NCBI GenBank assembly: GCA_938039675.1
Contig: CALHUI010000012.1
Coordinates: forward strand, 1 to 64,000
Origin: an uncultured Cytophagales bacterium
GTDB taxonomy: Bacteria; Bacteroidota; Bacteroidia; Cytophagales; Thermoflexibacteraceae
DNA length: 64,000 nucleotides
Direction of reading: 5' to 3'
Shown here: piece by piece, positions 40,577 to 41,661 of the stretch
How the letters are laid out: the number at the start of each line of letters is the position of its first letter
Numbering within the stretch: the stretch's first letter is position 1
Notes under the pieces: model-generated
Told to the model about the DNA's origin: nothing
What the model saw: only the letters and a program-made list of their open reading frames with translations
The model's database searches: none
Program-made: the position numbers and the translations under genes

Positions 40577-41059
40577 TTATTTATACAAATTCTGGTCTAT
40601 TTGCAGCGGACGATTGATGCGCTCTTCGAGCGAAATGAATGTCTCCGTCCGCTCTATTCCTCTGACTTTCTGAATTTTTTCGTACAGCACCTCGCGCAGG
40701 TGGTTTGTATCGCGGCAAGTGAGCTTGGCAAAAATGCTGTACGCACCTGTGGTATAATTCAAGGTCAGAATTTCGGGGATTTTTGCCAATTCATTACAAA
40801 CGGTTTCATACATCGAGCTTTTTTGCAGATAAATCCCCAGAAAAGCGGTGATGTCATACCCCAGTTTGCTGAAATCGATAATGAGCGATGCCCCCCGAAC
40901 AATACCCATCTTTTCCAACTTTTTCATCCGGACGTGTACTGTGCCGCCGGACACACAAACTTTATCGGCAATTTCGGTGTATGGTGTTTTGGCATCCTTC
41001 ATTAACTCAGATAATATCTTGATGTCGATATTATCAATTTCTAAATTTTTGTCGTTCAT
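40577..41059 (-). CDS. Lrp/AsnC-family transcriptional regulator
   Basis: The 160-residue protein has an N-terminal winged helix (IDNIDIKILSELMKDAKTPY, TEIADKVCVSGGTVHVRMKK) and a C-terminal RAM ligand-binding domain (LTLNYTTGAYSIFAKLTCRD, GIERTETFISLEERINRPL). Lrp proteins sense amino acids. I use the ATG at 41059 (MNDKNLEIDN). It reads away from the tRNA-like unit at 41.1-41.7 kb, and a 19-bp palindrome lies between them. Control of its neighbour by this regulator is inference. Confidence 0.9.
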   Translation of the reverse strand: MNDKNLEIDNIDIKILSELMKDAKTPYTEIADKVCVSGGTVHVRMKKLEKMGIVRGASLIIDFSKLGYDITAFLGIYLQKSSMYETVCNELAKIPEILTLNYTTGAYSIFAKLTCRDTNHLREVLYEKIQKVRGIERTETFISLEERINRPLQIDQNLYK

Positions 41060-41125: not shown

Positions 41126-41144
41126 AAACTTTGTTACAAAGTTT
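41126..41144. promoter_or_regulatory. Operator-like palindrome between the Lrp gene and the tRNA-like unit
   Basis: AAACTTTGTTACAAAGTTT is a 19-bp inverted repeat, perfect but for its central base. It overlaps the TTTG (-33) of the promoter that reads toward the tRNA-like RNAs, and lies 67 bp upstream of the Lrp start codon. It is well placed for repression of one or both. Confidence 0.5.
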
Positions 41145-41174
41145 GCAATATTAAGATTGTTTATTGTAATTTTG
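41142..41174 (+). promoter_or_regulatory. Promoter of the tRNA-like RNA unit
   Basis: TTTG at 41142-41145 and TAATTTTG at 41167-41174 are 21 bp apart. This is the layout of the Bacteroidota housekeeping promoter (TTTG, about 19-21 bp, TAnnTTTG). Transcription would start near 41180, about 15 nt before the first tRNA-like RNA, leaving a short leader for RNase P. Confidence 0.7.
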
Positions 41175-41194: not shown

Positions 41195-41339
41195 TGTAGG
41201 GTGATGAAACTGGCAGCCATGCCCTCCTGTCTCGGGGGTGGGGATTTCAGGATAAAGCCTCAAGAGTGTGAAACAAGCATTTGCTTCACTTTCTTATGTG
41301 CCTAACAGCCCCGTGAAGGTTCGACTCCTTCCCCTACAG
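41195..41339 (+). ncRNA. tRNA-like RNA with giant variable arm, copy 1
   Basis: The acceptor stem TGTAGGG (41195-41201) pairs perfectly with CCCTACA (41332-41338), and G41339 follows. The D-arm ATG/CAT has loop AAACTGGCAGC with the tRNA GG. The anticodon stem CCCTC/GGGGG (41222-41226, 41234-41238) has loop CTGTCTC, giving GTC at 41229-41231. The T-arm GAAGG/CCTTC has loop TTCGACT. Between anticodon and T-arms lies a variable arm of 76 nt (41239-41314) with GGGG/CCCC, AGG/CCT and a long hairpin at 41262-41295. Asp identity bases G34, U35, C36, C38 and G73 are present, but U37 and the U1-A72 pair are odd. No known family comes to mind. Function is unknown: an unusual tRNA, or an RNA that mimics one. 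Confidence 0.8.
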
Positions 41340-41388
41340 CAAAATAAAAGTGCTTTAAAATCCCGATAACTCGGGGCAAAATAATTCA

Positions 41389-41425
41389 AAAGTTTTTAAT
41401 GTAAATGCTTTTCATTAAAAACTTT
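41389..41425 (+). repeat. Hairpin between the two tRNA-like RNAs
   Basis: AAAGTTTTTAATG (41389-41401) and CATTAAAAACTTT (41413-41425) form a perfect 13-bp stem with an 11-nt loop, ending 4 bp before copy 2. It has no T-run and is more likely a processing signal than a terminator. A small CCCGA/TCGGG hairpin (41362-41375) precedes it. Confidence 0.65.
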
Positions 41426-41429
41426 ACAA

Positions 41430-41586
41430 TGTAGGGTGATGAAACCGGCAGCCATGCCCTCCTGTCTCGGGGGTGGGGATTTCAGGATAAAGCCTACAGA
41501 GAGAATGAATCAATCAATCGCTTGCTTCATTCTCTTTGTAGATGCCTAACAACCCCGTGAAGGTTCGACTCCTTCCCCTACAGCCA
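41430..41586 (+). ncRNA. tRNA-like RNA with giant variable arm, copy 2
   Basis: This is a second copy of the tRNA-like RNA. The first 66 nt and the last 41 nt differ from copy 1 by one base each (C at 41446 in the D-loop, A at 41552). The acceptor TGTAGGG (41430-41436) pairs with CCCTACA (41576-41582). G41583 is followed by an encoded CCA at 41584-41586. The anticodon loop CTGTCTC is at 41462-41468. The variable arm is longer, 85 nt (41474-41558). Its hairpin is CTACAGAGAGAATGAA (41494-41509) with TTCATTCTCTTTGTAG (41526-41541), 16 pairs with one G-U, unlike copy 1 in sequence but paired at the same place. No promoter lies between the copies, so they share a transcript. Confidence 0.8.
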
Positions 41587-41630
41587 AGCATGTGTTTATT
41601 TTATGTGTTGTTTATTGGTTAAGGTTTAAA

Positions 41631-41661
41631 GGAGACGCGCTATGCGCGTCTTCTTTATTTT
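41631..41661 (+). terminator. Terminator of the tRNA-like unit
   Basis: AGACGCGC (41633-41640) and GCGCGTCT (41644-41651) form a tight stem with a three-base loop, followed by a T-rich run. It closes the transcription unit and separates it from the fasciclin gene. Confidence 0.88.

Follow-up and report, generated by a model that had tools for sequence, protein, structure and literature searches.

A family of tRNA-like RNAs in Bacteroidota and some of their phages, with a proposed role in asparagine synthesis

A tandem RNA pair beside an AsnC-type gene

The window, i.e. the whole 64,000-nucleotide stretch of DNA analysed here (G000:C12, from a genome of 3.28 Mb in 34 contigs), holds two tRNA-like RNAs that sit between a divergent AsnC-type gene and the gene for a lipoprotein-like protein. 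The features of the locus are given below; bit scores are those of R1, a covariance model built from relatives of these RNAs.

40577..41059, minus strand: AsnC-type transcription regulator gene, divergent from the RNAs (PDB, NCBIfam, TBLASTN, neighbour clustering)
41142..41174, plus strand: promoter-like pair, TTTG at 41142-41145 and TAATTTTG at 41167-41174
41195..41340, plus strand: tRNA-like RNA copy 1, from U1 to G73-C74 (sequence, BLASTN, covariation; 150.8 bits)
41227..41233, plus strand: anticodon loop CUGUCUC of copy 1, GUC at 41229-41231
41239..41314, plus strand: variable region of copy 1, 76 nt, with a 4-bp stem, a conserved GGAUAAA/CUAAC internal loop and a distal hairpin
41430..41586, plus strand: tRNA-like RNA copy 2, from U1 to an encoded CCA (sequence, BLASTN, covariation; 151.3 bits)
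41462..41468, plus strand: anticodon loop CUGUCUC of copy 2, GUC at 41464-41466
41474..41558, plus strand: variable region of copy 2, 85 nt, on the plan of copy 1 with a different distal hairpin
41627..41657, plus strand: terminator-like hairpin 3' of copy 2 (one found, 0.6 expected from shuffles)

A sequence-only reading had proposed two tandem tRNA-like RNAs with variable arms of 76 and 85 nt, and direct reading of the coordinates bears this out; the 7-bp acceptor (UGUAGGG/CCCUACA), the CTGTCTC loop and the GAAGG/CCUUC T-arm were found again in the same letters. U1, A72 and G73-C74 of copy 1 fall at 41195, 41338 and 41339-41340, and U1, A72 and G73-CCA of copy 2 at 41430, 41582 and 41583-41586, CCA being encoded in copy 2 only. 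By eye, most tRNA genes of the host also stop at C74 and do not encode CCA; the RNA would then be expected to undergo the usual 3' processing of tRNAs. The anticodon loop of the host tRNA-Asp is that of copy 1 apart from position 37, and a BLASTN search of the genome returns these two copies only.

Folded singly, the copies reach minimum energies of -44.6 and -59.5 kcal/mol, in structures that contain the acceptor, anticodon, variable-base and T helices; the D-stem is absent from these folds, a GGCA/UGCC hairpin being preferred instead. We accept the D-stem on covariation and not on the single-copy energy folds: in an alignment of 40 copies it is 98.3% paired, with two of its three pairs changed on both sides. 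Between the two copies lies a perfect inverted repeat (AAAGTTTTTAATG...CATTAAAAACTTT, 41391-41424) without a T-run, possibly a processing hairpin.

Standard tools pass over the pair. ARAGORN calls a tRNA-Ser and a tRNA-Ala in the window and neither tRNA-like copy, and Rfam 15 gives no match at either copy at its gathering score; at E<=10 there are eight sub-threshold matches, none of them to tRNA. Nor is there an Rfam match of the RNAs to bacterial Y RNA (YrlA) or to the other tRNA-like families of that database. The initial impression that no RNA class fits is thus upheld by Rfam 15, and ARAGORN is equally blind. With no Rfam 15 match the family goes unannotated, widespread though it is, and it is apparently undescribed: within the accessible text of the literature searched on long-arm tRNA-like RNAs and tRNA-dependent asparagine synthesis, a body in which subscription journals are thinly covered, the RNA does not appear.

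The closest protein to the window's regulator in the PDB is E. coli AsnC (111.8 bits, against 48.4 for E. coli Lrp), and AsnC is likewise its best NCBIfam model, at 155.5 bits and below the cut-off of 227 (Lrp, 55.5). An AsnC-type gene is found by TBLASTN in 65 of 119 host loci, and in all 61 of these where it could be placed it is divergent from the RNA, 113-348 nt away; neighbour clustering, which took in 111 of the 119 loci, gives a single divergent regulator family as the nearest upstream ORF in 60 of them. Several RNA-bearing genomes have the AsnC-type gene elsewhere (e.g. G058 and G044). The E. coli asnC and asnA genes are themselves a divergent pair, and AsnC tunes asnA to asparagine. 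The likeness here is an AsnC-type gene divergent from a proposed asparagine-making gene; the difference is that the partner is an RNA gene.

The pair at 41142-41174 resembles the Bacteroidota-type promoter consensus, and TAnnTTTG is commoner in upstream stretches (60 of 110) than in random ones (58 of 2380). Conserved stretches also lie downstream of the arrays, such as TTGTTTATTGGTTAAGGTT at 41600-41625 in the window, and at L309 and L310 (7-mer enrichment computed), and two genomes without the RNA, G036 and G051, retain a downstream TTGGGTTAATGTTG together with a terminator-like hairpin. Upstream of the AsnC-type gene at L287 (G007) the RNA was not found and a short CTGTAAG...CTTGCAGC stretch is present, which could be a remnant made up of acceptor plus T-arm.

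A structured family with invariant bases

Almost certainly, the two RNAs belong to a large tRNA-like family that is found in Bacteroidota and in part of their phages. By BLASTN, members turn up in 42 of the 59 related genomes searched, the window genome included, with one to six matches each, often in tandem. All 42 were checked by alignment or model, and the weak partial matches among them are full copies (R1 of at least 104 bits), except in G025, where the copy is broken off at a contig end (87.9 bits). From 48 extracted copies, 45 of them distinct, 40 were aligned for R1 and five near-duplicates left out. The aligned copies have a cloverleaf with a 7-bp acceptor, 5-bp anticodon and T stems and a T-loop, a Leu-type D-arm, the 4-bp variable-arm stem, the GGAUAAA/CUAAC internal loop and a free distal part. 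The 26 pairs are 98.7% paired over the 40 sequences and 14 are changed on both sides, with strong covariation in both cloverleaf and variable-arm stem; none of 500 shuffles matches the observed covariation, and slid structures are 50-60% paired. The cloverleaf once drawn by eye is thus beyond chance, and the homologues that the sequence-only reading had proposed to search for in Bacteroidota exist, recovered by BLASTN and R1 with acceptor and T pairing conserved. An anti-Shine-Dalgarno mimic (CCUCC in the anticodon stem) was considered and dropped, as these bases belong to a helix that shows compensatory changes. Likenesses of the GGAUAAA/CUAAC loop to known motifs were set aside.

Across the phylum, R1 members of at least 80 bits occur in at least 31 of 296 genomes, a lower bound given the strict filters and the ten candidates scored per genome. 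A raw R1 count of 268 of 296 was discarded, its 45-63-bit matches of 85-90 nt being class II tRNA-Leu-like genes. A pattern scan of named-genome contigs yields at least 119 stretches with the RNA, and the 80 titles listed among these include Hymenobacter, Pontibacter, Dyadobacter, Spirosoma, Cyclobacterium, Algoriphagus, Fulvivirga, Saprospiraceae and Chitinophaga. Since the pattern scans of named-genome and viral contigs demanded C32, U35, C36 and C38, conservation is claimed instead from an unbiased set of 82 distinct copies, which BLAST or the model recovered without any anticodon pattern.

The giant variable arm holds for the window and less strictly beyond it: the variable region spans 39-123 nt across host copies, arms diverge between tandem copies, and in one genome the long arm is gone altogether. 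This short form (G023:C23:55337-55415; L302/L383) is 79 nt long, scores 72.5 bits with R1 and is called tRNA-Asp(atc) by ARAGORN. A subset of copies (L015, L019, L024, L025, L031, L040 and others) has GGGTTGACCAC in common inside the arm, which suggests a conserved sub-hairpin.

All 82 unbiased copies have U1-A72, G2-C71, U35, C36, C38, G73 and C74, while acceptor pairs 4-7 vary with compensation. In the larger set of 197 distinct host copies, partly found by pattern, one has A1, one is without its 5' end and the others are U1-A72. U33, a base conserved in decoding tRNAs, is kept in 61 of the 82 and lost in 21, and it is missing from every sampled copy of G001 (two), G327, G335 and G032 (three each). 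G34 is found in 73, with A or C in its place in Hymenobacter and Pontibacter copies; G10 is usually replaced by A or U. In the D-loop, GG is followed by CAGC, CAGA or TAGC in 82 of 82, with A at the 20a place when aligned to tRNA-Leu.

The accessible text of PMC9976931 gives the bacterial Asp identity set as G73, G34, U35, C36 and C38, with G10 and G2-C71 as minor elements, and names U1-A72 as the amidation signal of Asp-tRNA(Asn), with G1-C72 and U20a blocking amidation. Judged by its bases, the RNA combines the main AspRS charging bases, of which G73, U35, C36, C38 and G2-C71 are each invariant, with the GatCAB amidation signal, U1-A72 and no U20a, in one molecule. Of the Asp identity bases first singled out, U35, C36, C38 and G73 are indeed invariant in the 82 copies, and G34 stands in 73 of them; U1-A72 and U37, set down at first as unlike tRNA-Asp, prove informative, as the former is invariant and is the GatCAB determinant of the same source. 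The missing G34 in 9 of 82 copies and the mostly replaced G10 would count against an AspRS/GatCAB reading, as would the absence of G1-C72, which with G2-C71 is described there as crucial for tRNA-Asp; the latter absence is, however, necessary if the RNA is to be amidated.

The RNA resembles tRNA-Asp(GUC) in its anticodon loop, bar position 37, and in G73, G2-C71 and C38, but differs in having U1-A72 and not G1-C72, no U20a, an unconserved U33, and a class II, Leu-like core with its long variable region. With class II tRNA-Leu it has in common the 3-bp D-stem, the GGNAG D-loop and the A15-U48 combination, whereas G73 in place of A73, the Asp-type anticodon loop and the long structured arm set it apart. 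Indeed, R1 gives ordinary tRNA-Leu-like genes about 45-60 bits, which points to tRNA-Leu as the likely ancestor.

Allo-tRNAs and tRNA-Sec-like RNAs also have a long variable arm, G73 and sometimes GUC (PMC7609411, accessible text), and one could picture a serine-type RNA of this kind, i.e. a class II tRNA with G73 that is charged by SerRS. G2-C71 would fit, as would a tRNA-Ser lying within 10 nt of the RNA in 21 of 90 viral loci. We regard this as extremely unlikely, however: the acceptor/T-stem is 7/5 and not 8/4 or 9/3, the arm is much larger than in allo-tRNAs, the AspRS and GatCAB bases are present, A72 stands where the Ser set has C72 (PMC9976931, accessible text), the invariant U35, C36 and C38 would go unexplained, and the G023 form without a long arm keeps U1-A72, G2-C71, U35, C36, C38 and G73 (position 34 is A).

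Association with gatB across genomes

We compared 80 genomes, 55 with the RNA and 25 without (status by BLASTN and R1), taking gatB alone as the marker for GatCAB. Where GlnRS and AsnRS are present, GatCAB is unneeded for tRNA charging. AsnRS is found in 78 of the 80, both misses being 89% complete, and a GlnRS match in 43, of which 42 exceed the family cut-off and one (G009) is a contig-end fragment. Among GlnRS-positive genomes, 31/31 with the RNA and 0/12 lacking it have gatB (Fisher 6.5e-11, kinship ignored); among the 37 without GlnRS the figures are 23/24 and 11/13. The one miss with the RNA, G005, is 89% complete, and overall 54 of 55 RNA-bearing genomes have gatB. Families f23 and f24 each hold both states (G135, G154 and G313 versus G060; G065, G091 and G146 versus G075). 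For 14 further RNA-bearing genomes gatB was predicted beforehand and found in all 14, and in the phylum sample it is present in 31 of 31 with the RNA. Of the 33 gatB-positive genomes of the same order or class in that sample, 29 have the RNA, one is G023, and three (G099, G209 and G255) have a gatB match without the RNA. Outside the class, where gatB and not GlnRS was scored, the RNA is missing from 218 of the 220 gatB-positive genomes, which counts against the route proposed below.

Dedicated asparagine synthetases show the reverse tendency: AsnA or an AsnB of E. coli size, as judged from match length, appears among the matches listed in 5/55 genomes with the RNA versus 14/25 without (kinship ignored). 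In both groups, long AsnB-like proteins are common among the matches listed. The window genome has two, one beside a glycosyltransferase; the best model for the second is an exopolysaccharide-type amidotransferase, below that model's cut-off, and it passes the general asparagine-synthase cut-off, so asparagine may be made by a protein route in RNA-bearing genomes. In genus g18, AsnA is present in G040 (C34) and G023 (A34) and not in G055; perhaps the RNA decays where AsnA was gained.

Asparagine is made on tRNA-Asn by AspRS and GatCAB in Deinococcus, Thermus and Bdellovibrio, and 18 genera, some of them Bacteroidetes, have AsnRS, GlnRS and GatCAB without an asparagine synthetase, for which a relaxed AspRS was proposed (PMC4206432, accessible text). 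GatCAB could be kept in our genomes too for a relaxed AspRS that makes Asp-tRNA(Asn), as in Bdellovibrio, with the RNA otherwise employed; the host's own tRNA-Asn, likewise U1-A72, fits this classical route and counts against ours. We hold it to be very unlikely, as it leaves the AspRS and GatCAB bases of the RNA, and the 31/31 versus 0/12 split, unexplained. Each of 30 genomes has a single bacterial AspRS match, and a loop His, a candidate marker of relaxed AspRS, is absent from all 26 of these 30 sequences that were read, with or without the RNA.

Proposed function and phage carriage

We propose, as fairly probable, that AspRS charges a non-decoding RNA, on which GatCAB turns Asp into Asn, and that this Asn is then set free, with AsnC probably in control. 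In this scheme AspRS would recognise GUC, C38, G73 and G2-C71 and attach aspartate; GatCAB would recognise U1-A72 and amidate it on the RNA; asparagine would then leave as a free supply for AsnRS, and the AsnC-type protein would set transcription of the RNA, probably tuned to asparagine. The AspRS/GatCAB part is likely; free asparagine as the product we infer. As Asn-RNA with a GUC anticodon would place Asn at Asp codons, a drift from decoding would be explained, and the long arm and loss of U33 may keep this misreading RNA off the ribosome. The presence of the AsnC-type gene near only 65 of 119 host loci weighs against this route. The first guess of an extra tRNA with a special job came close; GatCAB, the adjoining AsnC-type gene, the phages and the loss of U33 were not foreseen.

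The same charging and amidation could serve another end. In staphylococci, a non-proteinogenic tRNA-Gly is a donor for peptidoglycan, and the RNA might similarly pass its aminoacyl group to a cell wall, a lipid or a peptide. That would account just as well for the identity bases and for the link with gatB, and loss of U33 suits any non-decoding use. Such a donor is nevertheless unlikely, since it does not by itself predict an AsnC-type neighbour, fewer dedicated asparagine synthetases or carriage in phage tRNA arrays, and the neighbour clusters listed hold no recurrent transferase gene.

Asparagine synthesis on the RNA would have U1-A72 and G73, the expected order of Asp charging and GatCAB amidation, and the presence of GatCAB despite AsnRS and GlnRS in common with the tRNA-Asn route. 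The carrier here is a separate RNA with the Asp anticodon GUC that appears not to decode, so no relaxed AspRS would be needed, and for Bacteroidota the RNA offers an alternative to the one proposed in the accessible text of PMC4206432. In transamidation the RNA would take the part of tRNA-Asn while reading no codons, which would be a new form of tRNA-dependent amino acid synthesis. If true, this would explain why many Bacteroidota keep GatCAB despite GlnRS and AsnRS, and the RNA would plainly exemplify a tRNA that has moved out of translation and now serves metabolism as a cofactor with a regulator of its own. To the fuller statement, that an RNA gene and not a protein gene is the dedicated asparagine-synthesis component of a large clade, a tRNA-derived cofactor released from decoding on which the general enzymes AspRS and GatCAB make free asparagine, with AsnC-type control in asnA's place, and copied into phages with their tRNA sets, we give an even chance.

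As for the phages, 90 viral contigs match the family, 89 of them with R1 at E<=1e-20, while INPHARED phages and PLSDB plasmids give no BLASTN match to the RNA. Phage-type proteins such as RNA ligase are found at two array-bearing loci, and the viral nature of the others is the IMG/VR assignment. At least three ARAGORN genes (up to 26) accompany the RNA in 37 of the 90 stretches and none in 35; this count is used because a run on 27 loci picked for extra tRNA matches overstates arrays. A tmRNA is found in 13 of 90 and a tRNA-Asp in 10, and in some contigs the RNA lies beside the phage's own tRNA-Asp, which argues that it is not simply an Asp decoder. An AsnC-type gene is found in 0 of the 90 loci. 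U1-A72 is present in 63 of the 67 distinct viral copies, and one copy is cut; the three with A1-U72 count against the proposed route.

Tandem copies with divergent arms, phage carriage and loss of U33 would also suit a regulatory or decoy RNA, i.e. one that mimics a tRNA and so titrates out AspRS, GatCAB or some nuclease, or that takes part in phage-host conflict. We consider this quite unlikely: the RNA is widely conserved by vertical descent at a fixed locus beside a regulator, which together with the gatB pattern points to a substrate, and the strict keeping of charging and amidation signals exceeds what a decoy needs. For asparagine synthesis on the RNA, phages with large tRNA sets may carry it for supply during infection.

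Some viral copies have a hairpin inserted in the D-loop, and L210, L237, L221 and other viral loci carry sets of 20-26 ARAGORN tRNA genes, some with a tmRNA.
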